47,988 nucleotides of DNA from assembly GCA_016223045.1 (NCBI GenBank), contig JACRPT010000030.1:1-47988 (forward strand). Direction: 5' to 3'. The position numbers and the translations under genes were made by a program. The notes under the pieces are model-generated. The model made no database searches. It had not been told where the DNA came from and worked only from the letters and a program-made list of their open reading frames with translations. Of this stretch, positions 18,343 through 38,247 are shown one piece after another. The DNA comes from Candidatus Eiseniibacteriota bacterium (GTDB lineage: Bacteria; Eisenbacteria; RBG-16-71-46). Within the stretch, counting starts at the first letter, position 1. Each line of letters opens with the position of its first letter.

Positions 18343-18826
18343 AGTGCGGTTCTCCCCGACGCGGACACCTGCGGTGGGTTCCCGCACCCCGCGGTGCCCG
18401 GAACGCGGAGCGTTTGCGCGTGCCCCGGCCGCTGCCCGCGCCACCACTCACGCGCACCGCGGCGCCCCAGGCGCCGGGCGTCTGCGCGTGCCCCGGGACG
18501 CCGTGTCGCCCGGGACCGGGCGTGCGGGCCCGCCTGCTGCGCTGCGCCGCGTCGCCGCGCCGTTCAGGGAATGTCCCGGCTGTCAGGGAACGTGTCAGCG
18601 CTGGCGGGCGGGTGCTTGCCACGGCGCGGGCAGCGGAACCTCCGCCGGTCGCGCCGGCCGGACTCAGCCGGTTGTGAGAGCGGCGGTTGCGAGCCCGGCG
18701 TCGCGCGCCCCGCCGCGTGGCATGCCCATTGCGGGCGTCAGGCAGCCCCGATTCGAAACCGCGGGACGCAGGCTCGGAGCGCCCGATCGACGGACCGACC
18801 GACCGAGCATGATGAAAGGAGAGCAC

Positions 18827-20101
18827 ATGAGAGTCTCTCGGTGGATCGTGACCGGCAGCCTCGCTCTTTCTGCGGCCGCCATGCTGCTGGCGCTCGCGCG
18901 CCCCGCCACGGCGATCCCGGCGTGGGGACGCAAGTACGAGGTGGACTGCACGAGCTGCCACGTGGCCGGGTTCAAGCTCAACCGCTTCGGCCAGAACTTC
19001 CTGCGCTCCGGCCACCAGACCGCGGGCTGGGAACAGAAGCAGGACATCGGCGGCCACCTGAGCGTGGCCCAGAAGAGCCGCTTCAACTGGGGCAAGACCG
19101 TGGTGGACGGGGACGTGAAGGCCGGCTCCAAGGTCAACAGCTTCGAGCAGCACGCCCTCTCGGTCTACATGGGCGGCCCGCTGGAGAAGGAATGGTCCTA
19201 CTTCGCCGAGCTGTACTGGCAGGAGAACTCGGGCAACACCAGCGGCGCCTCCGACCTGAACGACTACGGGCGCAGCAAGCTGGCCGACGCCTACCTCCAG
19301 TACATCCACCACGAGGGTGACGACCAGTACACCTCCGTGCGCTTCGGCCAGTTCTCGCCCTTCCTGCTGCACCTGCACGGGGTGGGGGCGCGGCTCTCGC
19401 AGGACCGCCCCTACGTCATCAACAGCGGCACCGTGGGCGACAACCCCTACAAGGCCTTCGTCCGCCAGTACGGGCTCGAGGTCGCGCAGTCGGTCAGGAG
19501 CTTCACCGCCACCGCGGCGGTCATGAACGGGACCGGAGCCAAGCTCTTCAACCGCGTGGACAACGACCTCAAGAAGGACGCCTACGGCACGCTCGACTAT
19601 GCCTTCGACGAGTTCGGCTCGATGCTCGGCGTCTACGGCTACTCCGGCCACTACCCGCTGCGCGCCGACAACGCGGTCAAGTACGCCACCTACGACGATT
19701 TCAACCAGCTCGGCGTGCTCGGCAACTTCACCCGCAAGCAGGGCGCGCTGGTCGGGGCGTTCTTCAGCGGCACCAACAAGTTCTCGCTGACCAACGAGGT
19801 GGCGGCGCCGGCCGACACCGCGGACACGGCGGTCGAGCAGAAGTCCATGGGCTACTACGCCGAGGCGCAGCTCTACATGCTCCACCCGCGCGTGCAGCCC
19901 TACCTGCGCTGGGACTTCTGGGATCCGAACACCGACGTGGACAACAACGAGGTGTCGGGCCCGCTCTTCGGCATCTCCTGGCGCGCGCTCGATGCCGGCC
20001 GGCTGGTGGCGCACTACCAGGTGCTGAAGACGAAGAAGGGCTCGACCACGCTGGACGAGACCAAGCACTCGGTGGTGTTCGAGGCCAACTTCATGTTCTA
20101 G
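18827..20101 (+). CDS. Fused monoheme cytochrome-porin (Cyc2-like outer-membrane protein)
   Basis: ATG preceded by aaaggagag; signal peptide then IPAWGRKYEVDCTSCHVAGFKLNRFGQNFLRSGHQ (single N-terminal CXXCH), followed by about 370 aa of beta-barrel-like sequence ending SVVFEANFMF (terminal Phe). Confidence 0.75.
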   Translation: MRVSRWIVTGSLALSAAAMLLALARPATAIPAWGRKYEVDCTSCHVAGFKLNRFGQNFLRSGHQTAGWEQKQDIGGHLSVAQKSRFNWGKTVVDGDVKAGSKVNSFEQHALSVYMGGPLEKEWSYFAELYWQENSGNTSGASDLNDYGRSKLADAYLQYIHHEGDDQYTSVRFGQFSPFLLHLHGVGARLSQDRPYVINSGTVGDNPYKAFVRQYGLEVAQSVRSFTATAAVMNGTGAKLFNRVDNDLKKDAYGTLDYAFDEFGSMLGVYGYSGHYPLRADNAVKYATYDDFNQLGVLGNFTRKQGALVGAFFSGTNKFSLTNEVAAPADTADTAVEQKSMGYYAEAQLYMLHPRVQPYLRWDFWDPNTDVDNNEVSGPLFGISWRALDAGRLVAHYQVLKTKKGSTTLDETKHSVVFEANFMF

Positions 20102-20144: not shown

Positions 20145-20434
20145 ACCAGTGCCGGGCCCCCTGGTGTCGCGCGCGGCACGGGCGCGCGGTCCTGGTCCCA
20201 TAGGACACTCGCCATTCCGTTCGGAAGTGGTAGTCTGCGCGAGTCGGACCGACGGTGCCTTGCCCGTCGGCCCGACCCGTTGCTGCCGGGCGACCCGCTG
20301 CTCCCTCGCTTCGAGTCACCGCCCGGCGCGACCGCCGGGCAGCGCGCGCACCGCGCGGGCCGGCGGTCCTTGTCCAGCGTGACTGTGGGACTCGCGCCCG
20401 AGCCGCGGCGCGGATCCCCTCCGGGATCCCGACC

Positions 20435-20863
20435 ATGAAACGAAGAGACCTGCTGGGCTGGGCGATCAAGGCGATGGGGGCGACCCTCGGCGGATTCGTC
20501 CTCTATCCGCTCGCGCGCTACCTGGTGCCGCCCAGTATCCCCGAGGCGGTCACCCGGCGCGTGGTGGCCGCGAAGAAGGGCGACGTGCCGCCCGGCGGCT
20601 TCAAGACCTTCCCGTTCGGCGCCCAGCCCGGGATCCTCGTCCACACCGCCGACGACCGCTGGCTCGCGCTCTCCGCCGTGTGCACCCACCTCGGCTGCAC
20701 CGTGCAGTACAAGAACAGCGATCGCATGATCTGGTGCGCCTGCCACAACGGCTTCTACGACCTCGACGGCCGCAACGTCTCGGGGCCGCCGCCGCGGCCG
20801 CTCGAGCGCTACGTGGTCCATGTCGAGGGCGAGGACGTCATCGTCGAGAAGGCCAAGGCATGA
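20435..20863 (+). CDS. Rieske [2Fe-2S] protein (module A)
   Basis: CTHLGC ... CACHNGFYD ligand boxes; N-terminal KRRDLLGW Tat-like anchor. Confidence 0.9.
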
Positions 20864-20924
20864 GCCTCGCGATCTCCGGTCGGCGCGCGCCGGACCCCGG
20901 GCCGGCGGCGTGGAGCGCGCCGTG

Positions 20925-21998
20925 GTGAGCCGGCTGCGCGAATGGCTGCGGGACCGGCTCGGCCTCGAGGCGCTGGAGCACGTCGCCGACAAGAAGGACG
21001 TTCCGGTCCACCGCCACAGCTTCTGGTACTACTGGGGCGGGATGACCCTGTTCCTGTTCGGGATCCAGGTCGCCACCGGCATCCTGCTGCTCCTCTACTA
21101 CCGCGCCAGCGCCGACGAAGCCTACGAGAGCGTGCGCTTCATCATGACGCAGGTCTCGTTCGGCTGGCTCATCCGCTCCATCCACTCGTGGAGCGCGAAC
21201 CTGATGATCGGCGCGGTCATGGTGCACATGTTCAGCGCCTTCATGCTCAAGGCCTACCGCGCGCCGCGCGAGGCCACGTGGCTGTCGGGCATGGTGCTGC
21301 TCGGGCTGTCGCTGGCGTTCGGTTTCAGCGGCTACCTGCTGCCCTGGAACCAGCTCGCGTTCTTCGCCACCAAGGTGGGCACCGACATCACCGGCGCGGT
21401 GCCCGTGATCGGTCCGTTCATGCTGCGCTTCCTGCGCGGCGGCGAGCACATCACCGGCGGCACGCTCACGCGCTTCTTCGGCTTCCACGTGGCCATCCTC
21501 CCCGCGGTCGTCACCGTGATCCTGGGTGTGCACCTCTACCTGGTGACGCACCACGGCATGAGCGTGCCGCCCTCGGTGGAGGGCCGGACGCCGCCCCCGC
21601 CGCGCATGAAGTTCGTGCCGAACTTCCTGCTGCGCGACATGGTGGGGTGGCTCGCCGCCCTCGCGCTGCTGGCGCTGCTGGCGGCGCTCTTCCCCTGGGA
21701 GCTGGGCCTGAAGGCGGACCCCTACGCCTCGGCGCCCGCCGGCATCAAGCCCGAGTGGTACTTCGGCTGGATGTTCCAGACCCTGCGCATGCTGCCCTCG
21801 CACATCCTCGGCATCGAAGGCGAGCTGGTGGGCATCCTCGGCATCGGCCTGGGCGGCGTGGTGTGGCTGCTGGTGCCGTTCCTCGACGACCCGCGCGGCC
21901 AGGGCCCGCGCGCCCGCTTCTGGCGGGTGCTCGGCGCGGTCGCGATCGTCTACGTCGTGGTCTTCACCCTGCTGGTCTACCGCGGAGCGACGCCGTGA
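20925..21998 (+). CDS. Cytochrome b of a Rieske/cytb complex (module A)
   Basis: [15 protein letters not shown] and [16 protein letters not shown] bis-His helix pairs, PEWYFGW Qo motif; GTG start. Confidence 0.9.
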
Positions 21999-23269
21999 GA
22001 CTCCCGCGCATCCTGATCGCGCCGCTCGCCACGCTCGCGCTGCTCGCCGCGCTGCCGGCCGCCGCGTCCGCGGCGCGCGCGGGCGCGAATCCGCAGAACT
22101 CCTGCCTCGACTGCCACCGCGCGCTCGACGACGCGCGACTGGCCGCACCGGCGAAGGCGTTCGCCGAGGACGTCCACGGCGCGCACGGCCTGGGCTGCAT
22201 CGGCTGCCACGGCGGCGACCCGACCGACGCCGACATCACCTCGATGGACCCCGACAAGGGTTTCAAGGGGACGCCGGCGCGCAAGGACATCGCCGAGATG
22301 TGCGCCACGTGCCACGCCAGCGCGGAGTTCATGAAGCGCTACAACCCGCAGCCCTACATCTTCTCGATGGCCGAGTTCCGCACCAGCGTCCACTGCAAGA
22401 AGATCGCGGTGGGCGACCCGAAGGTCGCGACCTGCACCAACTGCCACGGCGTGCACGGCATGCTGTCGCGCAAGGACCCGCGCTCGCCGGTCAACCGGCG
22501 CAACGTCCCCGCCACCTGCTCGAAGTGCCACAATCCCGAGTACATGAAGGGCCGCACGGTGCCCACCAACCAGTACGCGCTTTACCGCGTCAGCGTGCAC
22601 GGGAAGGCGCTGCTCGAGAAGGGCGACCTTTCGGCCCCGGCCTGCAACAACTGCCACGGCAACCACGGCGCGGTGCCGCCCAACACGCGCGACATCTCGC
22701 TGGTGTGCGGCACCTGCCACGGGCGCGAGGGCGAGCTGTTCGCGAAGAGCAAGGTGAAGGCGGGGCTCGAGCTGGAAGGCAAGCGCGGCTGCGTGACCTG
22801 CCACGGCAACCACGGCGTCCAGCTCCCGACCGACGCGCTCATCGGCACCACCGGCGACGGCGTGTGCGGCCGCTGCCATGAGAGCGGCTCGGCCGGCGCG
22901 CGCGCCTCTGACGTGATCGTGCCCGCGTTCCATGCGCTCAAGGCGCGCATCGGGGACGCCGACAGCCTGCTCGCCGTGGCCGACCGGCTCGGCATGGAGG
23001 TGGAGGCCGGCCGCGAGCTCCTGAAGCAGGCCGACGATCAGCTCGTGAACGTGCGTGCGACGCTCCACGGCTTCGACACGAAGCAGATCACCGCGGTGCT
23101 CACCGAGGGTGACGGGCTCGCCGACAAGGCGATCGCCCAGGCGCGCGACGCGTTGCGCGACTGGCGCATCCGCCGCATCGGCATGGCGCTCTCGGTCGTC
23201 GTGATCCTGCTGATGGCCGGGCTGCTGGCGCTGAGGATCCGCCGGCTCGAGCGCGGGCCGGGCGCGTAG
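21995..23269 (+). CDS. Nine-heme c-type cytochrome with C-terminal TM helix (module A)
   Basis: 9 CXXCH (CLDCH, CIGCH, CATCH, CTNCH, CSKCH, CNNCH, CGTCH, CVTCH, CGRCH); C-terminal [22 protein letters not shown] overlap with cyt b. Confidence 0.9.
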
Positions 23270-23374: not shown

Positions 23375-25594
23375 CTACGCCGGGTCTTCCGCCGCGGGCG
23401 GTGCGCCGCCGCCGGACCGCGCGCGCTCCGCCTCTTCCGCGGTCGCGCGCTCCGCGGCCACGATGCGCGCCCATTCGGCGTAGTGTTCGTGGCGCAGCTG
23501 CTCCTCGCCGATCTGCCCGCTGACCCAGGTCCAGTTCATCGGGTAGACATCGGGGTTCAGCACGTTCTGGTAGACGTGCCACACCAGAATGGCGAGGAAC
23601 GCCAGCCACGCCTCGTAGTAGTGGACCAGCGTGGCCAGGTCGAGCACCCACTTCGCCAGGACCCGCAGCGACTGGTTCTCGAACCACAGCACCAGGCCGG
23701 TCGCCGTCATCACCACGGTGCCCCACACCAGCGCCCAGTACTCGGCCTTCTCGATGTAGCCGAAGCGCTCGAACGCGGGCGGTGAGGGCCGCTTCCCGGC
23801 CAGATAGAGCAGGTTCGCGAACAGGTCCTTCACGTCCCGGAGCCGCGGCAGCAGCGCGAGCAGCGTGCCGCGCCCCCGCGTGGTGAGCGCGTAGCCGACG
23901 TGGAGCGCGGAGGCCGCCAGCATCACGATCGCGGCGCCGCGGTGGATCAGGCTGCGCCACGCATAGCCGCCCTCGAGCCGCGCCAGCCAGGCGAACGGCC
24001 ACGACTCGGGGAACTTGAGCGCGAAGCCGGTATAGACCAGCGTGAAGAAGCTGGTCAGCAGCAGCACGTGCTGGAGGCGCTCGAAGCGGGTCATGCGCAT
24101 GAACCAGCGCGGCGAGCCGTGATGCGCGGCGGGCGCGCCGAGGTGGCGCCGCCAGTGGGACTTGAGCTTCTTCGCGAAGTCCAGGCCGTTGTGCAGCACC
24201 ATGAAGCCGATGGTCCCGAAGATGAGGAACAGGTAGATCAGGCGCGCGTAGTAGAGGACGGGATTGTCCGGGGTGGCCATCGCCACGTGCACCGGCCCCA
24301 TCGCGAACTTCGTGCCGGCGCCGGGGTGGCACTTGCCGCAGGTCTCGGGCAGGCGCCGCGGGCTCACCGCCGAGCGCGGGTCGCTCGAGGGCAGCACGTC
24401 GTGGTAGCCGTGGCAGCTCGCGCAGTTTGCCACCGCGGGCGAGCCGCCGCGTGCCGCCAGCCCGTGGAAGCTGTCCTTGTAGGTGCTGAGCCGCCCGGCC
24501 GGGAGCCCGTAGGTCTCGCGGATCACGGTGGCCTCGTGGCAACGCGAGCAGGTCTCGGTGACATGCCCCGCCACCACCGGCGAGCCAGGATCGTGCGTCC
24601 CGCGGATGCGGTGCTCGCCGTGGCAGTCGGTGCACATCGGCGCGGCCGTCACTCCGGAGCGCAGCGCCGTGCCGTGGATGCCGGCGCGGTAGGCGGCGGT
24701 CTCCGGCGCGTGGCACTTGCCGCAGGTGGACGGGATGTTCGTGCGGTAGATCGAGGAGGCGGGGTCGGTCGCGCGCTTCAGCCGGTGGCTCTCGTGGCAG
24801 TCATTGCAGGTCGCTGCGCGCGGATTCGGCGAGCGTCCGTGCACGCTCTGGGAGTAGAGCGCGTAGGCCTCCGGGATGGTGATCTTGCGGCGCGCCATCA
24901 GCGCGCGGTCGGCGTGGCAGCGGGCGCAGGTCCTGGCCAGGTTGGCCCGGCTGACCGGCGCGGTGGGGTCGCGGTGTGACCGGAGGGAGTGGAACTCGCC
25001 ATGGCAGTCGCCGCAGGTCGAGGCCTCCGGGTCGCCCTTCGCGAGCGCCACGCCGTGCACGCTGCCGCCGTAGTCCTCGCTCTCGCGCGCGTGGCACGCG
25101 GCGCACGCCGCGGTGCCGGTCCTGGCTGCGGGGCGCACGCCGTGCGTGCCGTGGCAGCCGGTGCAGCTCGCCTGGGCCCGCGCCACCGCCGCGCCCGCGT
25201 GCACGCTCTGCCCGATCGCGCGGGCCTCGGCGGTGTGACAGGCGCCGCACCGCACCGCCGGGAGCTTCGGCTCGTGCGGGATGGCGGTGACGCCGCGGTG
25301 GCAGTCCACGCACGCCCGCTTCGCGTGCGGCGAGGCCGCGAGCTGCCCCAGGTCCACGGTGAGCGAGCCGGTGCGTCCCGGGCCGCTCCGCGCCAGCGTC
25401 CGGTCCGCGTGGCACGACATGCAGACGTCGTCGCTGATGACCTCGGCGCGCGCGCGGACGAAGCAGAGCGCGAGCAGGAATGCGGCGGCGAGGCCCGCGC
25501 GCCGGGCGCGCGACCACCCGGAACCCGGCCTTCCATGGGCGCCGCCGGGGGCCCGGCGCGCGCGGAAATGGAGGATGCCGCCTCTGGACTCCAT
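23375..25594 (-). CDS. 13-heme c-type cytochrome fused to b-type (b561/FdnI-like) membrane domain
   Basis: 13 CXXCH motifs, then FERLQHVLLLTSFFTLVYTGF ... HRGAAIVMLAASALHVGY ... HYYEAWLAFLAILVWHVY. Confidence 0.9.
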   Translation of the reverse strand: MESRGGILHFRARRAPGGAHGRPGSGWSRARRAGLAAAFLLALCFVRARAEVISDDVCMSCHADRTLARSGPGRTGSLTVDLGQLAASPHAKRACVDCHRGVTAIPHEPKLPAVRCGACHTAEARAIGQSVHAGAAVARAQASCTGCHGTHGVRPAARTGTAACAACHARESEDYGGSVHGVALAKGDPEASTCGDCHGEFHSLRSHRDPTAPVSRANLARTCARCHADRALMARRKITIPEAYALYSQSVHGRSPNPRAATCNDCHESHRLKRATDPASSIYRTNIPSTCGKCHAPETAAYRAGIHGTALRSGVTAAPMCTDCHGEHRIRGTHDPGSPVVAGHVTETCSRCHEATVIRETYGLPAGRLSTYKDSFHGLAARGGSPAVANCASCHGYHDVLPSSDPRSAVSPRRLPETCGKCHPGAGTKFAMGPVHVAMATPDNPVLYYARLIYLFLIFGTIGFMVLHNGLDFAKKLKSHWRRHLGAPAAHHGSPRWFMRMTRFERLQHVLLLTSFFTLVYTGFALKFPESWPFAWLARLEGGYAWRSLIHRGAAIVMLAASALHVGYALTTRGRGTLLALLPRLRDVKDLFANLLYLAGKRPSPPAFERFGYIEKAEYWALVWGTVVMTATGLVLWFENQSLRVLAKWVLDLATLVHYYEAWLAFLAILVWHVYQNVLNPDVYPMNWTWVSGQIGEEQLRHEHYAEWARIVAAERATAEEAERARSGGGAPPAAEDPA

Positions 25595-25761
25595 ACCGAC
25601 CCTGATCGGAGGGTGTGGACGAACCACGACACTCCGCAAACGCAAAGAGCGGACCATACAGCATTTCCGAAGCCCGGGGCCGGGGTCGGCTCTCCGTCCG
25701 CGACTTCCGCAGTCGCACCGGGAGGTATCCAAAGAGCGACCTCGACTTGTGGGGTGCCAAT

Positions 25762-25777
25762 TCAGTAAAAGTACTGA
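25762..25777. promoter_or_regulatory. Candidate operator: 16-bp inverted repeat in divergent cytochrome promoter region
   Basis: TCAGTA-aaag-TACTGA between divergent genes 23375..25594 (-) and 25998..26540 (+), in a locally AT-rich patch. Confidence 0.35.
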
Positions 25778-25997
25778 CAGGCGTGGCAGACTCCACCGGC
25801 GCCTGGTGCGTAGGATGGAGCGCCCCACGACTTCATTCCCGCGCAACTGCCGGCCTGCGTGCGCCGCGGGTGGTCCGGCCCGCTCCTTGCTGCCCCTGGG
25901 CATGGAACGGGTGAGGCGCCCGGCGGACCGCGCTCGTGATGCGAGCCGGGCAGGGATGGGTGATGGGCTTCGACTTCCACACTGCGGAGGAGGACCA

Positions 25998-26540
25998 ATG
26001 TTCAGAAGGATCCTGGCACTCGGAGTCGCGGCGGGCGTCACGTTCGCCCTCGCCGCCTACGCCGCCGATGCGGCGGGCCCCGAATACGTCGGCATGACCA
26101 AGTGCAAGATGTGTCACGCGAAGCAGTACAAGGCGTGGACCGAGACCAGGCACGCGAAGGCCTTCGCGGGCCTCAAGGCGGCCGACGAAGCGACCATCAA
26201 GAAGATGGCCGAGACCCTCAAGGCCGAGGTCAAGGACCATCCCGAGACCAGCGAGGCCTGCGTCGGCTGCCACGTCACCGGCTACAAGAAGCCGGGCGGC
26301 TACCCCGCGGCGGACAGCCTGAAGACCGCGGCGGTCACGAACGTGACCTGCGAGGCCTGCCACGGCCCGGGCAGCGTGCACGTCAAGTCCACGATGGCCG
26401 AGAAGAAGAAGACCATGGAGGCCGCCCTGCCGACCGCGGCCACCTGCCAGAAGTGCCACACCGCCGACATCAGCCCGAAGTTCGACTTCGACGCGATGAA
26501 GAAGGGTGTGCACCCGGTGGCGGCGGCGCCGGCGAAGTAG
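25998..26540 (+). CDS. Tetraheme cytochrome c554-like periplasmic protein
   Basis: RBS ggaggaggacc; signal peptide; EYVGMTKCKMCHAKQYKAWTETRHAKAF; 4 CXXCH (CKMCH, CVGCH, CEACH, CQKCH). Confidence 0.85.
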   Translation: MFRRILALGVAAGVTFALAAYAADAAGPEYVGMTKCKMCHAKQYKAWTETRHAKAFAGLKAADEATIKKMAETLKAEVKDHPETSEACVGCHVTGYKKPGGYPAADSLKTAAVTNVTCEACHGPGSVHVKSTMAEKKKTMEAALPTAATCQKCHTADISPKFDFDAMKKGVHPVAAAPAK

Positions 26541-26582: not shown

Positions 26583-29498
26583 ATGACCGGACGTGACGAA
26601 GGGGAGCGGGTGACTCGGGAGGCGCGAGAGCACAGGGGCGGGGTGGAGGGGCGCATCCGCGAGACGGACGCAGGATCTTCAGCCGCGGGCCGGACTGCAT
26701 CGCGCAGGCCGGCCCGCGGTCTCGTTCTTCCCGCGCTGGCGCTCGCCGCCCTGGTGGCGGCGCTGTCCGGCGCGGCCGGGGACTCGGCACCCGGGCCGCT
26801 GCCCGGCGCCGAGGAGTGCGGCGTCTGCCACGAAGCCGGGCCGCCGCTCGCCAGGCGCGCGCCCGACACGCCGCCGCGCTTCGACGCGGCCGGCTTGCGC
26901 GGCTCGCCCCACGCGGCGCTGGCGTGCGCGGCGTGCCACGCCGACCTCGAGGGCAAGGAGTTCCCGCACGAGCGGAAGCCCGCCCCGGTGTCGTGCGGCG
27001 GCTGCCACGCCGCCGAGCTCAAGCAGTTCAACGAGAGCCTGCACGGCCAGGCCGCCGCGCGCGGCGAGAAGCTCGCGCCGGGCTGCAAGGACTGCCACGG
27101 GCGCCACGACGTGCTGCGCGCGTCCGACATCCGCTCGGTCACCAACACGATGAGCGTCCCGGAGCTGTGCGGGCGCTGCCACCACGAGGGTTCTCCGGTC
27201 CAGCTGACCTACCACATCCCGCAGGACTCGATCCTCGCGAACTACTCGGAGTCCATCCACGGCGAGGGGCTCTACAAGAAGGGCCTGATGACGACTGCGG
27301 TGTGCACCAGCTGCCACACCGCGCACCACGTGCTGCCCCACACCGACCCGCGATCGAGCATCGCCCGCCGGAACGTGGCCGCGACCTGCATGAAGTGCCA
27401 CGTGCGCATCGAGACCGTGCACCGCAAGATCGTCAACGGCGTCCTGTGGGAGAGCCAGCCCAACGCCATCCCCGCGTGCGTCGAGTGCCACCAGCCGCAC
27501 CGCGTGCGCAAGGTGTTCTACACGCAGGGCATGGCGGACCGCGACTGCCTGGTCTGCCACGCGCGCCGCGACCTGAAGTCGCAGGACGGGCGCACGATGT
27601 TCGTGGACCACGCGGAACTGCTGGGCTCGCGCCACCAGAAGATCGCGTGCGCCCAGTGCCACAGCGGGGCGCAGCCCTCGAAGACGCGCGCGTGCGCCAC
27701 CATCACGCGCAGGGTGGACTGCTCGGTGTGCCACGCCGAGGTGGTGGACACCTACCGGAAGAGCACGCACGGCCAGCTCGCCGCTAAGGGCAGCCCGGAC
27801 GCGCCGGTGTGCCGCGACTGCCACGGCACGCACGGGACCCTCGGCCACCTGCAGTCGGACGCGCCCACCTACTCGCAGCACGTCCCCAACCTGTGCGGGC
27901 GCTGCCACCGCGCGGGCCAGAAGGCCGCGGTGCGCTACCGCGGGCCCGAGAAGCTGGTGGTGGAGCACTACGTCGAGAGCATCCACGGCAAGGGGCTGCT
28001 CGAGAGCGGCCTCACCGTGACCGCGACCTGCGTGGACTGCCACACCTCGCACGGCGAGCTGCCGCACCAGGACCCGGCCTCGAGCGTGAACCGGGCGAAC
28101 GTGGCGCGAACCTGCGCCCAGTGCCACCGCGGCATCTACGAGCTGTACGCGAACAGCGTGCACGCGCCGGGCGCCACCCGGACCAAGAAGCCGCTGCCGA
28201 CCTGCTCGGACTGCCACTCGGCGCACACCATCCGGCGCACCGACCGCGAGGATTTCCGCCTCAACATCATGACCCAGTGCGGGCGCTGCCACGAGGATCT
28301 GGCGAAGACCTACTTCGAGACCTATCACGGCAAGGTCTCGAAGCTCGGCTACCTCAAGACCGCGAAGTGCTACGACTGCCACGGCGCGCACGACATCCTG
28401 CCGAACTGGAATCCGAGGTCGCACCTGAGCCGCGCCAACATCGTGAAGACCTGCGGGCACTGCCACCCCGGCTCGAACCGCCGCTTCGCCGGCTACCTCA
28501 CGCACGCGACGCACCACGAGCCGCACCGCTACCCGGCGCTGTTCTGGGTGTTCTGGGGCATGACCGGGCTGCTGGTCGGCACCTTCACGCTGGCGGGCCT
28601 GCACACGCTGGCCTGGCTGCCGCGCTCGCTCCAGTACCGGCGCGAGCTGGAGCGCGAGCACGCCACCGAGAGCGCGCAGCACGTGCGGCGCTTCCCGCCG
28701 CTCTACCGCAACCTGCACCTGATGGTCATCGTCAGCTTCATCGGGCTGGCACTGACCGGCATGACGCTCAAGTTCTCGTACACGCCCTGGGCCTTCGTGC
28801 TGTCGCGCCTGCTCGGCGGCTTCGAGGCTGCGGGCTTCATCCACCGCGTGTGCGCGGTGATCACCTTCACCTACTTTTTCCTGCACGTGCGCGACATGCT
28901 GCGGCGCAAGAAGCAGGGCCGGATGTCGTGGAAGGCGTTCATCGCAGGCTCGAGCGGGATGCTCCCGGGCCGGACCGACCTCAGGGAGTTCTGGCAGTCG
29001 GTCAAGTGGTTCGCCGGCAGGGGCCCGCGACCGCGCTACGGACGCTGGACCTACTGGGAGAAGTTCGACTACTTCGCGGTGTTCTGGGGCGTGGCGATCA
29101 TCGGCTCGACCGGGCTGATGCTGTGGTTCCCGACCTTCTTCACGAAGCTGCTGCCGGGCTGGCTCATCAACGTCGCGACCATCATCCACAGCGACGAGGC
29201 GCTGCTCGCGGTGGGCTTCATCTTCACCGTGCACTTCTTCAACACGCACTTCCGCCCCGAGAAGTTCCCGATGGACACCGTGATCTTCACCGGCGGCGTG
29301 CCGCTCGACGAGTTCAGGAAGGACCGGCCGCGCGAGTACGAGGAGCTGGTGGCGAGCGGCCGGCTCGAGGAGCTGCTGATGGAGCCGCCGTCGCCGAAGC
29401 ACCTCCACGCCTGGCGCATCTTCGGCTTCATCGCGCTCTCGACCGGGATCCTGCTCATCCTCCTGATCGTCTACGCGGAGATCTTCGGATACCGGTAG
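26583..29498 (+). CDS. 19-heme c-type cytochrome fused to b-type membrane domain
   Basis: 19 CXXCH motifs over about 590 aa, then multi-TM domain with LYRNLHLMVIVSFIGLALTGM, FIHRVCAVITFTYFFLHV, IHSDEALLAVGFIFTVHFFNTHF. Confidence 0.9.
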   Translation: MTGRDEGERVTREAREHRGGVEGRIRETDAGSSAAGRTASRRPARGLVLPALALAALVAALSGAAGDSAPGPLPGAEECGVCHEAGPPLARRAPDTPPRFDAAGLRGSPHAALACAACHADLEGKEFPHERKPAPVSCGGCHAAELKQFNESLHGQAAARGEKLAPGCKDCHGRHDVLRASDIRSVTNTMSVPELCGRCHHEGSPVQLTYHIPQDSILANYSESIHGEGLYKKGLMTTAVCTSCHTAHHVLPHTDPRSSIARRNVAATCMKCHVRIETVHRKIVNGVLWESQPNAIPACVECHQPHRVRKVFYTQGMADRDCLVCHARRDLKSQDGRTMFVDHAELLGSRHQKIACAQCHSGAQPSKTRACATITRRVDCSVCHAEVVDTYRKSTHGQLAAKGSPDAPVCRDCHGTHGTLGHLQSDAPTYSQHVPNLCGRCHRAGQKAAVRYRGPEKLVVEHYVESIHGKGLLESGLTVTATCVDCHTSHGELPHQDPASSVNRANVARTCAQCHRGIYELYANSVHAPGATRTKKPLPTCSDCHSAHTIRRTDREDFRLNIMTQCGRCHEDLAKTYFETYHGKVSKLGYLKTAKCYDCHGAHDILPNWNPRSHLSRANIVKTCGHCHPGSNRRFAGYLTHATHHEPHRYPALFWVFWGMTGLLVGTFTLAGLHTLAWLPRSLQYRRELEREHATESAQHVRRFPPLYRNLHLMVIVSFIGLALTGMTLKFSYTPWAFVLSRLLGGFEAAGFIHRVCAVITFTYFFLHVRDMLRRKKQGRMSWKAFIAGSSGMLPGRTDLREFWQSVKWFAGRGPRPRYGRWTYWEKFDYFAVFWGVAIIGSTGLMLWFPTFFTKLLPGWLINVATIIHSDEALLAVGFIFTVHFFNTHFRPEKFPMDTVIFTGGVPLDEFRKDRPREYEELVASGRLEELLMEPPSPKHLHAWRIFGFIALSTGILLILLIVYAEIFGYR

Positions 29499-30352: not shown

Positions 30353-31561
30353 CTACAGGACTTCCGGCAGCGGGTCCTGCAGACGCCGGGTGGGCAGGAT
30401 CCTGACCAGCACGGTCAGGATCACGAAGGGCAAAGCGAGGAGCACGAGCGCGGTGAGCAGCCCCTCCAACCCGGTCATCTCCATCTTGTAGGTCATCAGC
30501 CCGCGGAAGCTCTTTGAGAACAGCTGGCCGCCGATCACCACGTTCCAGCGCGTGCTGAAGATGCCCATCTGGATCAGGATGACGGCGGTGAAGTAGAGCA
30601 GCTTGCGCATGTCCTCGTTGAAGTGCCTGAGCCGCGCGATCACCAGGATCGCGAGCGGGATGAGCATCCCGAGCAGGATCTGGAGCACCACCAGGTTCAT
30701 GAACAGCTTGAGCGAGATGAGCTTGCCCAGGATCTTGACCGATTCCTCGCTCTGGTAGAGCCGGTGGATGAAATCGAGCGCTTCGAGCGAGAAGTCCACG
30801 ATCACCGCGTAGAACAGGAACGAGGCGATCCGGTCGAGGCAGCGCATGTCGATCCGCTCGTTCCGCATCGCGGTGATCACCATGTAGAGGAAGATCACCA
30901 TGGCGATGCCGGAGACGATCGCCGACATCAGGAACACGATCGGCATCAGCACGCTGCCCCACCACGGATTCGCCTTCACCGAGCCGAAGATGAATCCGAC
31001 GTAGCCGTGGAGCAGGAACGCCGACGGGATGCCGACGATGGTGATGGCCTTGATCGCCTTCTTGTCGAAGGCCACGGCCTGGTCGCTCACGTCCTTCGAG
31101 AACAGCGTGAGCACGCGGTGGATCCAGCGCAGCGGCCCGCGCTCCTGCCCCGCCAGCACGACCAGGTCGCGCCGGTACTCGAACCAGATCTCGAGCAGCA
31201 GCACGCCCATCAGGTACCAGGCGTAGACGAACCCGAACATCGCCATGGCCGAGGTCAGGTGCGGCGTGAGGAAGATCTCGAACGAGCGCTCGGGGTGGCC
31301 GAGGTGCAGCAGCAGCGGGAACGGCGCCACCAGCAGGAACGCGAGCGCGGTCAGCAGCGACAGCCGGTAGGTCGGCTGCACGTCCTTCACGTTAAAGACC
31401 TTGACCAGCGACGCGAGGATGAACGCGCCCGCCACCAGCCCGGTCACGTACGGGTAGACCACGATCAGGATCGACCAGTGGATCTCGATCTCGTTCGGGT
31501 AGATGTAGCCCGTCACCTGGCCCAGCAGCTCCGACAGGCCCTTCGGGATCTCGGCGATCAT
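30353..31561 (-). CDS. NrfD/polysulfide-reductase-type integral membrane quinone-interacting subunit
   Basis: EIEIHWSILIVVYPYVTGLVAGAFILASL...LHLGHPERSFEIFLTPHLTSAMAMFG. Confidence 0.9.
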   Translation of the reverse strand: MIAEIPKGLSELLGQVTGYIYPNEIEIHWSILIVVYPYVTGLVAGAFILASLVKVFNVKDVQPTYRLSLLTALAFLLVAPFPLLLHLGHPERSFEIFLTPHLTSAMAMFGFVYAWYLMGVLLLEIWFEYRRDLVVLAGQERGPLRWIHRVLTLFSKDVSDQAVAFDKKAIKAITIVGIPSAFLLHGYVGFIFGSVKANPWWGSVLMPIVFLMSAIVSGIAMVIFLYMVITAMRNERIDMRCLDRIASFLFYAVIVDFSLEALDFIHRLYQSEESVKILGKLISLKLFMNLVVLQILLGMLIPLAILVIARLRHFNEDMRKLLYFTAVILIQMGIFSTRWNVVIGGQLFSKSFRGLMTYKMEMTGLEGLLTALVLLALPFVILTVLVRILPTRRLQDPLPEVL

Positions 31562-32349
31562 CGCACCTCCCCGTCGAGCTGGGCGTAGTAGACCTTGGGC
31601 TCCGTGTTGAGCGCGGGCTTCAGCACGCCGATCTTGTTCATGCGCTGGAAGCGCACCAGCCGGCTCGCTTTGCTCCTGAGATCGCCGAAGATCCGCGCCT
31701 GCGTCGGACACACCTCGACGCACGCCGGCAGCAGGCCCCTGGTGATGCGGTGGTAGCAGAACGTGCACTTGTCCGCGGTGCTCGTGCGGTGGTCGAAGTA
31801 GCGCGCGCCGTACGGGCAGGCCTGGATGCAGTAGCGGCAGCCGATACAGCGGTCCTTGTCGATCAGCACCACGCCGTCCCGGGTCGAGAACGTGGCGCCC
31901 ACCGGGCAGACCTGGACGCACGGCGGATGCGCGCACTGGTTGCAGAGCTTCGGCACGAAGAACGTGCGCAGGACGTCCCGGTCTTCCTGCAGCTCGCCGC
32001 GCTGCTGCGGGTTGACGCTGATGCACTCGACCCGGGCCTCGCCGTCGTGCATCACGCGGTAGCGCTCGACCCAGGTGCGGAAGAAGAACGGCTCCTGCGG
32101 CACGTCGTTCTCGGCCTTGCAGGCCTCGGCGCAGCGATTGCAGCCGATGCACTTGTCGATCTCGATCCCCATCCCGTACCAGTGGTCGGCGGGCTGGTAG
32201 TCGCCCAGCCCCATGTCGGGCTCGGCATCCGGCTTCGCCGGCTTCGGCTTCCCGGGCCCGGCGGCCTCGGCCTGCCGGGCGAGCGTCTCCAGCAGCTGGC
32301 CGGCGGGAATGAACAGGATCATGCCCTTGAGGAACTGGCGCTTGTTCAT
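31558..32349 (-). CDS. Exported ferredoxin-like protein with four [4Fe-4S] clusters (HybA/NrfC/HmcB-type)
   Basis: CIGCNRCAEAC, CNQCAHPPCVQVC, CIGCRYCIQAC, CTFCYHRITRGLLPACVEVC; N-terminal KRQFLKGM Tat-like signal; ATGA overlap with nrfD-like gene. Confidence 0.9.
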   Translation of the reverse strand: MNKRQFLKGMILFIPAGQLLETLARQAEAAGPGKPKPAKPDAEPDMGLGDYQPADHWYGMGIEIDKCIGCNRCAEACKAENDVPQEPFFFRTWVERYRVMHDGEARVECISVNPQQRGELQEDRDVLRTFFVPKLCNQCAHPPCVQVCPVGATFSTRDGVVLIDKDRCIGCRYCIQACPYGARYFDHRTSTADKCTFCYHRITRGLLPACVEVCPTQARIFGDLRSKASRLVRFQRMNKIGVLKPALNTEPKVYYAQLDGEVR

Positions 32350-33080
32350 TCCATGCCCTCCGGCTGGTGCGGGTAGTGGCACTGCCAGCACAGGTAGGCG
32401 CCGCCGTGCGCGGCCAGGTCCACCTTTGGCGCGTCGGGGTTGGCGGCTCCGCTCGCGTGGCACTGCCCGCAGAACTCGCGGGTCTGTGGCTTGGTGGGGA
32501 GCGCGCTGCGCGGCGCGACCTTGTGCTGCTCGCTCGCGGTGTGGCAGGTCGTGCACTCGAGCAGCGCGTGGCTGGAGAGCGCCTTGGTGCGCGCGATCTG
32601 CGCGTGGCAGGCCGAGCACTCGTGAGGCACCTCGGGCGGCACCGGGTCGTGCGGGTTGTGGCAGGTGATGCAGGGCTTGAGCGGGTTGTGCGCGGTCGGG
32701 TTGATCTGCGGGAAGCCGGTCGGTCGGGCCGCGTCGTAGGCGTGGCACACCGGGCAGAACTTGCGGTCGCGCGGCGCGTACGGCTTCACCGTCATCGGGT
32801 CGTCGGCGTGTTTCGCCGAGGGGCCGTGGCAGGTCTCGCAGGCCACGTTCTTGTGGTAGCCGTGGCTCTTGGCGTCGAACTGCTCCTCGTGGCACTCGCG
32901 GCAGGCGAGGACGCCCGCGAAGCTCACCGGCCGCGCCACCTCGCGCTTGACCGCGTTGGCGCGGTGGAGCTTCGTCGAGAAGTAGGACGCCGGGATGACG
33001 ACGAAGCGGACGACGAGGACCGCCGCGAGCACCACGGCGGTCACCGCTGCGAGCCGGCGGACCTGCTCGGGGAACTTCAA
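32346..33080 (-). CDS. Octaheme c-type cytochrome, N-terminally membrane anchored
   Basis: 8 CXXCH (CRECH, CETCH, CPVCH, CITCH, CSACH, CTTCH, CGQCH, CWQCH); likely TTG start with aggaggt upstream. Confidence 0.85.
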   Translation of the reverse strand: MKFPEQVRRLAAVTAVVLAAVLVVRFVVIPASYFSTKLHRANAVKREVARPVSFAGVLACRECHEEQFDAKSHGYHKNVACETCHGPSAKHADDPMTVKPYAPRDRKFCPVCHAYDAARPTGFPQINPTAHNPLKPCITCHNPHDPVPPEVPHECSACHAQIARTKALSSHALLECTTCHTASEQHKVAPRSALPTKPQTREFCGQCHASGAANPDAPKVDLAAHGGAYLCWQCHYPHQPEGME

Positions 33081-33326
33081 CGGACCTCCTGTGCCCGAGG
33101 GATGAGCGGTGCTGCGGGAGGGCGGCGCGGCGCGAGGGTCCCGCCCGGCGCCCCATCGTGCTCGTGAGATGGAACGGTCGTCCAAGCTATCAGGGGTGGG
33201 GAGGCGCGGGAAGCACGGACCGCAGGGGCGGCATGCGCCGATGGTCCGCCACGCTCTGGTCCGATGGTCTACGTGGGCGCGGTGGACCGGGTCGCGGGCG
33301 TCACGCGCGGAAGCGCGACGCGTTGC

Positions 33327-35147
33327 TCAGTCGCTGCCGTGGCAGCCGGCGCAGGCCGCCTTCGCCGGCCGGAGCTGGCCGGCCTTCGGGTCGTGGCAGG
33401 CGCCGCACTCGGCGCCCATCTCGAGGTGCGCCCGGTGCGAGAACTCCCCGCGGAAGCTCGGGATCGTGCGCGTCGTCACGTCGGCGTGGCATCTGGTGCA
33501 CGCGCTCGCGGCGGTCTCGGCCTGCCGGTGATGGCAGGGCACGCAGCCCTCGCCGCCGAACCGCACCACCTCGCCGGGCGCGCGCTGGTCGTGCGGGCGG
33601 TGGCAGTCGCCACAGTCGAGCTTCGCGGTGGTGAGGTGCGGCGCGTGCGCGAACGCGTGGCCCGCGAACCCGCCCTTCTGCGATTCGACGCCCTGGTGGC
33701 AGAGCAGGCACTTCCCGGCGCCCACGGACACCATGGACCACGGGCGCTCGAGCGCCGCCAGACCCTTCGCGCGGCGTGCCGCGTTCATCTGCTGGTACGC
33801 CTGCTCGAGCAGCGCGTAGGCGAAGTTCACGTTGTGCACGCCCTTGCCCTGCTCGACCAGCTGGAAGTTGTGGCGCGCGTCGGTCCACGACTGCAGCGGC
33901 TCGAGGCCCATCGCGCCCACGCTGGACTCGAGCTCGCGGCGGAGCGCCGCGACGCGCTGCTCCATGCCCTGCTTCCACGCCTGGTAGATCCTCCCGTAGG
34001 CCGGGCCGTGGCACGACATGCAGCTCACCTCGTTGGCGCGCTGGATCACCGGCCCGAGCGGCCCCTTCGCGGCCTGCGCGATCATCAGACCCTGGTTGTG
34101 GCAGCCCTGGCAGGTCACGCCCGCCGCGAACATCGGCCCCGGCATGCGCGGCACGCCGCGGCCGCCGATGCCGGCGTAGAGGTCCTGCTGCGCCGAGTGC
34201 CCCGCGCCGTGGCACGACTCGCAGGCGCCGGCCGCGGCGCCCGCGGCGGCGGCCTCCGGCTTCGCCAGCCGCCCGTGCTCGATCTGCAGGTGGCAGGTCA
34301 TGCAGTCCACCTTGTGCTCGGTGACGTGCATGCGGTGCAGGTAGTCCCGGTCTCCGAACTTCGCCAGCCGGTCCGGCTGGTTGTGGCAGGTGACGCAGCG
34401 CTCGCGCGGCACGTTGCCCTCGCCGCGCACCACGCCCGAGTGGCACAGCCTGCAGTTCATGTCGAGGCGTGCGACCTGGCTGTGGTCGAACGCCACGCCC
34501 TCGACGGTGGTGACCTTGTCGGGGATCTGGTGGCAGTTCTGGCAGCGCCCGGAGCCGCCGTTGACCGGCTGGCCCTTGAAGTGGCACAACGCGCAGGTCG
34601 AGGAGGTCACGCTGATGTGGCTGCCCTGCACGATCTGCGAGTGGCACGAGGTGCAGCGGAGCTTCAGGCCGCGCCGGCTCTCGGTGAGGTGCGGCGTGTG
34701 GTCGAACAGCACGTTGTGGAAGACTTCCTTGCCTTCGAGCAGCCGGCGCTCGTGGCAGCGCAGGCAGGCCGCATCGTCCACCTCGGCCCACGGGTTGGTG
34801 CTGTAGGTGCCGGTGAAGTACTTCACCACCATCGAGAGCGCCTCGTACTTCTTGCGCAGCTCCGCGGTGATGCCCGGTGAGATGTGGCACTCGACGCAGG
34901 CGATCTGGTTGTGCTTCGAGTGCTTCCACGACTGGTAGTAGGGCTTCATGATGTGGCAGGTGCCGCAGAACGTCGGCGTCGAGGACACCTGCATCGCCAG
35001 CAGCATGGCGACGATCACCAGCCCGAGCGCGAGCCCGGCGCTCAGCGTGGCGATCCGGAGCCCGCGCGGCGTGAGCCGGCCGCCGCTGCTGCTCGCGACC
35101 CAGCGGCCGATCGGCGAATCGGGACCCAGGCCGGGGACCCGGGGCAT
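33327..35147 (-). CDS. 18-heme cytochrome with N-terminal NapC/NirT-like quinol dehydrogenase domain
   Basis: TM helix followed by PTFCGTCHIMKPYYQSWKHSKHNQIACVECHISPG (NapC/NrfH-like), 18 CXXCH in total. Upstream start at 35204 also possible. Confidence 0.88.
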   Translation of the reverse strand: MPRVPGLGPDSPIGRWVASSSGGRLTPRGLRIATLSAGLALGLVIVAMLLAMQVSSTPTFCGTCHIMKPYYQSWKHSKHNQIACVECHISPGITAELRKKYEALSMVVKYFTGTYSTNPWAEVDDAACLRCHERRLLEGKEVFHNVLFDHTPHLTESRRGLKLRCTSCHSQIVQGSHISVTSSTCALCHFKGQPVNGGSGRCQNCHQIPDKVTTVEGVAFDHSQVARLDMNCRLCHSGVVRGEGNVPRERCVTCHNQPDRLAKFGDRDYLHRMHVTEHKVDCMTCHLQIEHGRLAKPEAAAAGAAAGACESCHGAGHSAQQDLYAGIGGRGVPRMPGPMFAAGVTCQGCHNQGLMIAQAAKGPLGPVIQRANEVSCMSCHGPAYGRIYQAWKQGMEQRVAALRRELESSVGAMGLEPLQSWTDARHNFQLVEQGKGVHNVNFAYALLEQAYQQMNAARRAKGLAALERPWSMVSVGAGKCLLCHQGVESQKGGFAGHAFAHAPHLTTAKLDCGDCHRPHDQRAPGEVVRFGGEGCVPCHHRQAETAASACTRCHADVTTRTIPSFRGEFSHRAHLEMGAECGACHDPKAGQLRPAKAACAGCHGSD

Positions 35148-35310
35148 CAGTCCGGACCGGCCGTGGTCCGCGTCGCGAGAACGCGAGATGGCCGCGGGAT
35201 GCAAGGCGCGCCGCCCGCCCGCACCGCAGTCGGTGCCCTGGCCACCGTCGAGGAGCGGACGGGCAGCGCAACGTGGCAGACTGCGGCCAGATCGCGTTCG
35301 CAGCAGCGGG

Positions 35311-36645
35311 TCATGGCCGGTCCGGACTGCCCTTCCTCGCGCCCTGGTCGCGGTACCGCTTCAGGACGAGCAGCGTCAGCAGCAGGTAGAACCAGAACAG
35401 GATGAGGACGAACTTGCGCTGCCTCAGGTGCCCGAGCTTGCCGTAGATCTCGGACTGCACCTCGTGGCCCATCGAACGCGCGCGCGTGGTGAAGCCCGCG
35501 ACCACGTCCTCCTGGACCGCGTGCGCCGCAGGCAGGGCCTCGCGCAGGTAGGTGCGGGCCTCCTCGATGCGCGCGCGGTAGTCGTCGGTCTGGAGCGGGA
35601 CCGCGTCGGCCCGGGCGGTGAGCGCCGCCGCCTTCTCCACCTCGTCGGCGGCCGAGTGGTAGTCGGTCCAGATCCGCCGTCCCAGCGCCAGCGTCTTCGC
35701 GTCCTTCGCGTGGCACTGCGCGCACGAGCCGGCCAGCCGCTCGGGCTGAGCGGCCTGGACGGTGTGGGCCTCGTGGCAGGAGGCGCACTCGGGGCCGTCA
35801 TCGCCGCTCCTCGCGCGATAGTGTCCGCCGGCCATGAAGTAGCGGCGCTCGGCGGTGTGGCACTGGCCGCACACCTTGTCCACGTCGCCCAGCGCGGGGG
35901 GCGCGGCGCCGTGAACGCCGTGGCAGCTCACGCAGGTGGGCGCGCGCAGGTTGCCGCGGTCGTAGAGTTCGCGCGCGTGGACGCTTCCCATGTAGAGCCG
36001 GAACACGTCGGGCTTGCCGCGCTGTTTCATGAGCGTGCTGTCGCCGTGGCACGCGCCGCAGGTCCTGGGGATGTTGAGCGTGAACGTGCGGCTCGCCGGG
36101 TCCTTCGGCGGCAGGATGTCGTGAGCGCCGTGGCAGTCCGAGCACACCGCCACGCGCGTGTCGCCCCGCGCGAGCAGGCGGCCGTGCCCCGAGGTCTGGT
36201 AGAGCGCGTGCTGGTCCACCGGCAGGTTGTAGGGCCGCATGCGCGCCTCGCTCGAGTGGCACGAGGCGCACAGGGCGGGAACGTCCTTGCGCGCGGGCCG
36301 GCCCCTGAACCCGGCCCCGTGCGCGCTGGCGACCTCGAGGCTCCGGTCGTTGCCGCCGTGGCAGGAGGTGCAGCGCACGCCCTCCTCGGCGTGCTGGCTC
36401 TTCTCGAACTGGACGCGCTCGGTGGGATGGCACACGCCGCAGCGCCCGGAGCCGGGCGAGACCGCGGTGGGAGCGCTGGCGTCGGGGTTCGGGTTGCCGG
36501 GCTGGGCGAGCGCGAGCGCGGGCAGCAGCAGGAGGCCGGCCGCGAGCGACGCGAGCGCGGGCAGCGGCAGGAGGCCCGGCGCCAGCGCCCCACGCCGGCC
36601 ACCGCCGGCGTGCTCGATCGCAGGAGCGGAACGGGTCGCGGTCAT
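35311..36645 (-). CDS. Nine-heme c-type cytochrome with C-terminal TM helix (module B)
   Basis: 9 CXXCH (CGVCH, CTSCH, CASCH, CSDCH, CGACH, CVSCH, CGQCH, CASCH, CAQCH); C-terminal helical region and VLILFWFYLLLTLLVL; same architecture as 21995..23269. Confidence 0.9.
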   Translation of the reverse strand: MTATRSAPAIEHAGGGRRGALAPGLLPLPALASLAAGLLLLPALALAQPGNPNPDASAPTAVSPGSGRCGVCHPTERVQFEKSQHAEEGVRCTSCHGGNDRSLEVASAHGAGFRGRPARKDVPALCASCHSSEARMRPYNLPVDQHALYQTSGHGRLLARGDTRVAVCSDCHGAHDILPPKDPASRTFTLNIPRTCGACHGDSTLMKQRGKPDVFRLYMGSVHARELYDRGNLRAPTCVSCHGVHGAAPPALGDVDKVCGQCHTAERRYFMAGGHYRARSGDDGPECASCHEAHTVQAAQPERLAGSCAQCHAKDAKTLALGRRIWTDYHSAADEVEKAAALTARADAVPLQTDDYRARIEEARTYLREALPAAHAVQEDVVAGFTTRARSMGHEVQSEIYGKLGHLRQRKFVLILFWFYLLLTLLVLKRYRDQGARKGSPDRP

Positions 36646-36649
36646 GGCC

Positions 36650-36814
36650 TCACCTCCGCTCCAGCAGCGCGCCGGCGACGCTCAGCGCGACCCACACCGC
36701 GAGCACCGCGACGCCCGCCAGCCGGATGCGCCGGCGCGATCCCGGGCTGCCGTCGCCGCGCAGCAGCTGCGGCAGCAGCAGCACCGCGAAGGCGAGCGCC
36801 AGCAGCACCAGCCC
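36650..36814 (-). other. In-frame 3' continuation of the module B cytochrome b gene downstream of an amber codon
   Basis: Reading through TAG (36815-36817, minus strand) gives GLVLLALAFAVLLLPQLLRGDGSPGSRRRIRLAGVAVLAVWVALSVAGALLERR then TGA, ending 4 nt before the next ATG. Confidence 0.75.
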
Positions 36815-37783
36815 CTAGAGCCACGCCGGCACCGGCAGCCACTGGAGCGTCGCGTAGGGCGCGAGCATGTACCACGGCGGGCGGACCCCGCCCGGGGTCA
36901 CGTAGGGATCGGCCGCGGAAAGGAAGCGGAACGGCAGCACGGTCGCGAGCGTCACCAGCACGCCGAACAGGCCGACCGTGAGCATCAGCATGGTGTAGAG
37001 GTGGTCGCGGAACGTGGTGGTCGCCTCGGGCCGCCCCTCGGGCGCCGGGGAGAGGCCCACGCGCCGGAGCGTCGCGAAGGTGAAGTAGACGCACGCCGCG
37101 TAGAACGTGGGCAGCACCATCACGTGGAGCGCGTAGAAGCGGATCAGCACGTCGTCGTTCACCACCCGCCCGCCCAGCAGGAACGCCAGGATCGGCCCCG
37201 CGATCGGCAGCGCGAACACCACCTCCATGCCGCGCACGGTGGCCCAGTAGGAGTGCGCGTCCCAGGTGAGCAGCCGCCCGGTGAAGTCGAGCTGGAGCAC
37301 CAGCCACACCATCGCCACCGCGGTCCACCACAGCACCTCGCGCGGCGCGCGGTAGAGCCCGTCCCAGAACAGGCGCAGCAGCCGGATCACCACCACCGCC
37401 GCCAGCAGCCACGCGCCCCAGGCGTGCATCTGGTGCAGGAACCAGCCGGCCGGGAGGTCCCTCACGATGGTGCGCGTGCTCTCGAACGCGGCCTCGGGCG
37501 TCGGCTTGTAGTAGTAGGCGAGCAGCACGCCGGTGACCGCTTCGAGCGCGAACAGGATGGCGGTGAGCAACCCCAGCACGCGCGGGCCGCTCGCGTACTT
37601 CGGCACCGGCGTCTCGGCCACCTCGCGCAGCACCTCGCGCACCGGGCGGCTGGTGTCCACCGGCGTGATGACGAAGCCGAAGTGCGTGAGGAAGGAGAAG
37701 ATCTCGCTCAGGTTGATGCGGCGCTCGAGCCAGTCCACCCAGCTCGCGCGCCCGTTCGGGTCCGGCGGCCGCGTCGCGCTCAC
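36815..37783 (-). CDS. Divergent cytochrome b (module B), interrupted by in-frame amber stop
   Basis: HAWGAWLLAAVVVIRLLRLFWDGLYRAPRE, HVMVLPTFYAACVYFTFATL, PPWYMLAPY Qo motif; aligned with 20925..21998; GTG start overlapping the Rieske stop. Confidence 0.85.
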   Translation of the reverse strand: MSATRPPDPNGRASWVDWLERRINLSEIFSFLTHFGFVITPVDTSRPVREVLREVAETPVPKYASGPRVLGLLTAILFALEAVTGVLLAYYYKPTPEAAFESTRTIVRDLPAGWFLHQMHAWGAWLLAAVVVIRLLRLFWDGLYRAPREVLWWTAVAMVWLVLQLDFTGRLLTWDAHSYWATVRGMEVVFALPIAGPILAFLLGGRVVNDDVLIRFYALHVMVLPTFYAACVYFTFATLRRVGLSPAPEGRPEATTTFRDHLYTMLMLTVGLFGVLVTLATVLPFRFLSAADPYVTPGGVRPPWYMLAPYATLQWLPVPAWL

Positions 37784-38247
37784 AGGTGGACGAAGATCTC
37801 GCCGGCCCGCACCGACACGGCGTAGGTGGGGAGTGCGCGCGGTGGCGGCCCGGAGAGCACGTTGCCCGCGAGGTCGAAGCGCCCGTCATGGCACGGGCAC
37901 ACCAGCACGCGGCGCTCGCGGTCGAAGTCCACGATGCAGCGCACGTGCGTGCACACCGCGGAGAGCGCCACCACCCGCTCGGCGTCGAGGCGCACCACGT
38001 AGAACGGCGAGACCCCGTGCCGCACCAGGCGGCCCTCGCCGATCTTGAAGTCGTCGAGCAGGCCGGCGCTCACCAGGTGCCCGGCCACCTTCTCGCGGTG
38101 CTCGGGCGCGCGCAGGTAGGCGCCGACGACGCCCGCCGCGCCGAGGCCCCACAGGCCCAGGAAGGCGCGGGAGAGCCAGGTCAGGAAGCGGCGGCGGGTC
38201 GCGGGCTCGCCCGTCGCCGGTGCGGCGCGCTCCCTGGGTGCGGACAT
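37780..38247 (-). CDS. Rieske [2Fe-2S] protein (module B)
   Basis: CTHVRC ... CPCHDGRFD; N-terminal TRRRFLTWLSRAFLG Tat-like anchor; RBS agggagg. Confidence 0.88.
   Translation of the reverse strand: MSAPRERAAPATGEPATRRRFLTWLSRAFLGLWGLGAAGVVGAYLRAPEHREKVAGHLVSAGLLDDFKIGEGRLVRHGVSPFYVVRLDAERVVALSAVCTHVRCIVDFDRERRVLVCPCHDGRFDLAGNVLSGPPPRALPTYAVSVRAGEIFVHL

Follow-up and report, generated by a model that had tools for sequence, protein, structure and literature searches.

The window, by which we mean the whole stretch of DNA analysed, spans 47,988 nucleotides of contig JACRPT010000030.1 from a Candidatus Eiseniibacteriota bacterium. It encodes a canonical Rieske/cytochrome b gene set, module A, which served for comparison, and a second set, module B, in which the cytochrome b lacks the axial ligands of heme bH (bN). 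The genes are as follows.

20255 to 23269, plus strand: module A, the canonical paralog, with Rieske protein, cytochrome b (four His, PEWY) and nine-heme cytochrome (Pfam matches, alignment)
30356 to 31564, minus strand: NrfD-like membrane subunit, accessory (PF03916, E 9e-36)
31561 to 32386, minus strand: NrfC/DsrO/TtrB-like 4Fe-4S protein, accessory
32349 to 33185, minus strand: eight-heme cytochrome c, accessory (also at loci L034 and L085)
33330 to 35204, minus strand: 18-heme cytochrome c with NrfH/NapC-like N-terminus and transmembrane (TM) anchor (PF03264, E 5e-12; TIGR03153, E 1e-15, below its cut-off)
35314 to 36645, minus strand: nine-heme cytochrome c with C-terminal TM anchor (nine CxxCH; c3/c7 Pfam matches)
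36650 to 36817, minus strand: in-frame TAG (36815-36817) and the homologous C-terminal continuation of cytochrome b, two hydrophobic helices, to a TGA at 36650-36652 (open in six same-family orthologs)
36815 to 37783, minus strand: module-B cytochrome b lacking bH ligands, the open reading frame (ORF) as called, to the in-frame TAG (PF00033, E 7e-32, with alignment and tree)
37783 to 38247, minus strand: Rieske [2Fe-2S] subunit with TM anchor, CTHVRC...CPCHDGRF (PF00355, E 4e-12)

The module-B cassette and its neighbours

The order Rieske, cytochrome b, nine-heme and 18-heme cytochrome is found in the window and at every locus long enough, from Eisenbacteria to Acidobacteriota and genome G253. 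The two Cys and two His ligands of the Rieske cluster (CTHxxC, CPCH) are complete in the window and in 10 of the 11 aligned orthologs. A Rieske ORF of the same family at locus L038 (1269-1739, plus strand) reads CPCD for CPCH, and one cluster His ligand appears lost. The module-B Rieske protein has Gly and Phe in place of the Ser and Tyr that raise the potential of the bc1 protein; this would be expected for a menaquinone system, and the host genome carries menaquinone biosynthesis genes (PF02621).

The nine-heme and 18-heme proteins together hold 27 conserved c-heme sites. All nine motifs of the former align in 11 genuine sequences, the twelfth row of that alignment (L040, whose contig stops after cytochrome b) being a different multiheme protein. 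In the 18-heme protein, 16 of the 18 motifs align in 11/11 sequences and two in 10/11, where the exception is cut by a contig end, and C-x-x-C-H-x-M is present at the first heme in all but variants. Its match to PF03264 (NapC/NirT) scores 46.3 bits against a cut-off of 24.1. The N-terminus, matching both NapC/NirT and NrfH profiles, resembles NrfH, NapC and CymA, from which the subunit differs by many added c7/c3-like heme modules and by being encoded with a Rieske/cytochrome b pair.

The eight-heme, NrfC-like and NrfD-like genes lie downstream of the cassette in the window, at L034 and in genome G003. We considered them as part of the unit and set them aside as accessory, because they are absent beside the cassette in most other carriers. 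Proteins with 13, 19 or 42 hemes adjoin the cassette in several genomes. In the window, ORFs at 23378-26041 (minus strand) and 26583-29495 (plus strand) encode cytochromes c with 13 and 19 hemes that are joined to membrane domains resembling cytochrome b561, an arrangement that recalls CbcL-type quinol oxidases; elsewhere, a 42-heme cytochrome c lies upstream of the cassette (L035, 3875-7129; L036, 4107-7310; L037, 6289-9531). Beside module A, an ORF at 18470-20098 (plus strand) has a single CxxCH and no Pfam match, and is possibly a one-heme outer-membrane barrel.

Carriers in the window's class encode COX1 in 12/12 genomes and ActD of alternative complex III in 10/12. The module-B cytochrome b is the sole PF00033 protein found in genomes G003 and G018, which are 98% and 96% complete. 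This setting is compatible with a role of module B beside alternative complex III, as an exit of electrons to multiheme chains.

Heme ligand positions

The module-B ORF at 36815-37783 matches the cytochrome b fold above the PF00033 cut-off and also matches PF13631 (E 4e-28). Following established knowledge of bc complexes, we assign the first of the two His in helix B, and likewise in helix D, to heme bL and the second to heme bH. Clade counts below refer to 16 orthologs, and canonical counts to a small comparison set of 22 other cytochromes b.

37424 to 37426, minus strand: His120 codon, helix B, bL ligand, kept in 16/16
37382 to 37384, minus strand: Arg134 codon, helix B, bH ligand position; Arg in 16/16 of the clade, His in 22/22 canonical cytochromes b
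37124 to 37126, minus strand: His220 codon, helix D, bL ligand, kept in 16/16
37079 to 37081, minus strand: Thr235 codon, helix D, bH ligand position; Thr in 7, Asn in 1 and His in 8 of the clade

An initial annotation of this DNA had aligned helices B and D of the two modules without gaps and reported the second His replaced by Arg and Thr, with the bL pair kept. Translation of 36815-37783 (minus strand) and realignment reproduce those letters, the gapless pairing, both substitutions (Arg134, Thr235) and the retained pair (His120, His220). Arg134 and Thr235 fall on the bH positions, and His120 and His220 on the bL positions, without gaps both in an alignment with 30 relatives and when aligned by hidden Markov model to cytochrome b6 chains of known structure, 1q90 among them. 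Misaligned helices are ruled out by this gapless match to solved cytochrome b6 and in three alignments of this analysis. The cytochrome b of module A (20820-21998, plus strand) has four His and PEWY. A third cytochrome b of this genome, the short ORF L001 (contig C133, 4754-5290; 251 aa), also has the four His.

A replacement bH ligand was sought and none is evident: apart from the known ligands, no His, Met, Cys or Lys reaches conservation in 13 or more of the 16 clade cytochromes b, and the aligned TM anchors of the partner proteins share no conserved His.

Distribution and history of the ligand loss

Among 59 relatives searched, six from the window's own family encode an ortholog with 56-77% identity, and a second family of the class contributes five more at 42-45%. 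A scan of GTDB genomes yielded ortholog records named Candidatus Eisenbacteria, three Acidobacteriota (one Thermoanaerobaculia) and one Latescibacterota, the last with a sequence resembling the f5 member G041; a 385-genome sample contained one more, G253, from a lineage outside the window's phylum. The 16 distinct sequences, all from metagenome-assembled genomes (MAGs), represent Eisenbacteria families f1 and f5, Acidobacteriota and one further lineage. Carriers thus belong to at least two phyla (Eisenbacteria and Acidobacteriota) and probably three, as names and genome handles are only partly matchable.

None of the 16 orthologs retains both bH histidines, a combination that the initial annotation had associated with lineage-specific decay. 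The check that it proposed, whether the Arg/Thr substitutions are conserved among homologs, comes out positive for Arg, and the contrast at this position (16/16 against 22/22) is beyond chance; Thr is confined to 7/16, which are all of family f1 and include the window, while eight orthologs keep His and one Acidobacteriota sequence (L039) has Asn. In a tree computed with the trait columns removed, a branch supported at 100/100 separates the 16 orthologs from the rest, and this tree requires one change at helix B and two at helix D. The helix-B ligand was lost once and the helix-D ligand probably twice later. Such an order suggests that the heme was perhaps already missing or loosely bound when the second His drifted, and the persistence of His in half of the clade indicates that the helix-D residue may still have a role.

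The Qo site and other clade signatures

Further positions set the clade apart, within the membrane and at the Qo site.

37319 to 37321, minus strand: Ala155 codon, helix-C glycine position beside heme bH; Ala in 14/16, Gly in 22/22 canonical sequences
37286 to 37288, minus strand: Asp166 codon, inside helix C; Asp in 14, Glu in 1 and Ser in 1, Gly in 22/22 canonical sequences
37232 to 37234, minus strand: Arg184 codon, Qo region; Arg in 16/16, Val in 22/22 canonical sequences
36875 to 36877, minus strand: Pro303 codon, replacing the acidic residue of the PEWY Qo motif; Pro and no acid in 16/16

The Asp166 position is acidic in 15/16 of the clade; four remoter cytochromes b carry Ser, Asn, Ser and Leu at it. 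Residue 184 presumably lies in the cd region of the Qo pocket. Tyr at 233 is also clade-specific. Conserved besides the bL His pair are the two glycines of helix A and the helix-C glycine on the bL side. The Qo motif reads PPWY (as in the window), APWY or MPWY in all 16 orthologs, against the acidic second residue of PEWY or PDWY, and it is variable across the Rieske/cytochrome b family. As some working bc complexes have no acid in their PEWY motif (PMC10583091), the Qo changes are no proof of lost bifurcation.

An in-frame stop codon in the window copy

The window cytochrome b carries a TAG at codon 323, behind which 54 homologous residues follow in frame up to a native end. In relatives this codon specifies Ser, Leu, Pro, Phe, Val or Arg. 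Identity to L034 is 72% over 53 residues behind the TAG and 76% before it. NG86 dN/dS, a rough measure at this GC content, is about 0.25-0.42 across pairs. Over the 53 codons behind the TAG it is 0.81, compared with 0.37 before, codons too few to conclude from.

Discussion

On the evidence of alignment and tree, the bH ligands have genuinely been lost; the loss is ancient, has been conserved and is not local decay. We consider it somewhat better than an even chance that module B is a derived menaquinol:multiheme-cytochrome-c oxidoreductase that holds only heme bL and does not run a canonical Q-cycle. The initial annotation had proposed a non-bifurcating quinol oxidase feeding multiheme cytochromes, which would also be our best reading; it did not mention the changes at the Qo site, the NrfH/NapC-like protein with 18 hemes, the TAG or the helix-D His that half of the clade keeps.

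Menaquinol would be oxidised at a remodelled Qo site, with the first electron passing through the Rieske protein to the nine-heme subunit, which would stand in for cytochrome c1/f. With no bH to reach the cytoplasmic side, the second electron would also leave on the periplasmic side, by a route that we can only conjecture: either a second Rieske turnover or a transfer from bL to a c-heme close to the membrane. Electrons could then be carried outward by the 18-heme NrfH/NapC-like subunit. Protons would be released outside and little or no charge would cross the membrane, leaving energy coupling to other complexes such as alternative complex III. Delivery of both quinol electrons to periplasmic c-hemes appears to be the most economical reading; we infer the absence of heme bH, the direction of electron flow and the absence of charge translocation from sequence comparison. 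Rhodobacter H212N, a bH knockout, has its bH/Qi branch cut but still reduces bL (PMC4330944, PMC4807273), and it is this site that the natural enzymes have lost.

The initial annotation had also offered a decaying complex, which finds no support for the clade as a whole: six same-family orthologs are full length, open at the TAG position and carry the same Arg/Thr, dN/dS across pairs stays at the values given above, and the partner heme motifs are conserved. Decay confined to the window lineage would fit a TAG that takes away two C-terminal helices and the higher, if weakly estimated, dN/dS behind it, but other pairs lie at 0.25-0.40, the partner proteins are intact and the TAG may have arisen recently or reflect a MAG error; we hold such decay to be highly improbable. 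Reverse flow, in which extracellular donors would reduce quinone through the multiheme cytochromes, is conceivable in that multiheme chains are bidirectional in principle and 13-, 19- and 42-heme proteins lie nearby. However, no sequence feature favours that direction and, without bH, there is no known use of the membrane potential for uphill reduction, making this very unlikely.

It is quite unlikely that heme bH is still bound through unusual ligation, five-coordinate via the helix-D His or by an unrecognised ligand, with the Q-cycle running. The helix-D His in 8/16 and the bH-side helix-A glycine kept in all agree with such a heme, and, as His is kept in half of the clade, a five-coordinate heme at bH may exist in that half; but Thr or Asn in the other 8/16 are unlikely ligands, no other candidate ligand is conserved, and we know of no established case of Arg as an axial heme ligand. 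In Rhodobacter, Lys can substitute for His 212 (PMC4807273), whereas Asn there abolishes bH function. The bH region might instead be emptied and hold a quinone, bound by Arg134 and reduced directly by bL in a modified Q-cycle with a single b heme, which we judge unlikely. An abandoned position would not be expected to stay invariant as Arg134 does (16/16), the membrane Asp166 and Tyr 233 are clade-specific, and the helix-D His in half of the clade could be a quinone ligand; yet the Qo site is altered too, and the Gly to Ala change and bulky Tyr would fill a pocket rather than open one. That the quinone replaces heme bH itself, bound by the invariant intramembrane Arg and shortening the transmembrane electron path in a Q-cycle with one b heme, is rather unlikely. 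Arg134 could still have a role at a relocated quinone site.

Module B shares with bc1 and b6f complexes the Rieske protein, the cytochrome b fold, bis-His bL, the PxWY position and a c-type cytochrome encoded alongside. It differs from them in having no bis-His bH and no Qo acid, in the Arg of the Qo region and in nine-heme and 18-heme cytochromes in place of c1/f. A cassette of family f53, from another phylum (G088 and G366; L083 and L084), is similar in its homologous nine-heme, 18-heme-like (11 CxxCH) and Rieske proteins and in the N-terminal extension of its cytochrome b, and NrfC/NrfD-like genes adjoin it in G088. In contrast, its cytochrome b is split into b6 and subunit IV and has four His and PEWY. 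L083 and L084 also have the Cys of FCFGG, as in cytochrome b6, which we take to be the heme ci binding position; at this position no Cys is conserved among the module-B orthologs. Sisterhood of the f53 and module-B cytochromes b is neither shown nor rejected (AU p 0.35). As this homologous cassette keeps four His, the multiheme partnership is not tied to bH loss.

Judged by its published description only, the Geobacter GSU2930-2937 cluster is comparable in encoding a Rieske protein and cytochrome b with multiheme cytochromes (2, 10, 12 and 5 hemes), a proposed site of quinol oxidation (PMC2825233). Rieske/cytochrome b complexes of anammox bacteria (Kuenenia) likewise have c-type subunits with several hemes, and for them too an unusual electron route has been proposed, via heme bN to an NAD(P) reductase, with an additional heme predicted (PMC12954380); unlike module B, they keep bN. 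Rhodobacter capsulatus H212N resembles L039 in having Asn at the helix-D bH ligand, but it is an impaired laboratory mutant, whereas the natural clade consists of conserved enzymes with Arg on helix B too.

A literature search of open papers found no description of a natural bH-ligand loss or of such a clade. To our knowledge, all bc-type complexes are regarded as built around the two-heme transmembrane path. With a conserved clade that naturally lacks bH ligands, and four-His relatives that have homologous multiheme partners, a ready comparison is at hand for asking whether heme bH serves bifurcation, proton coupling or the Qi reaction only.
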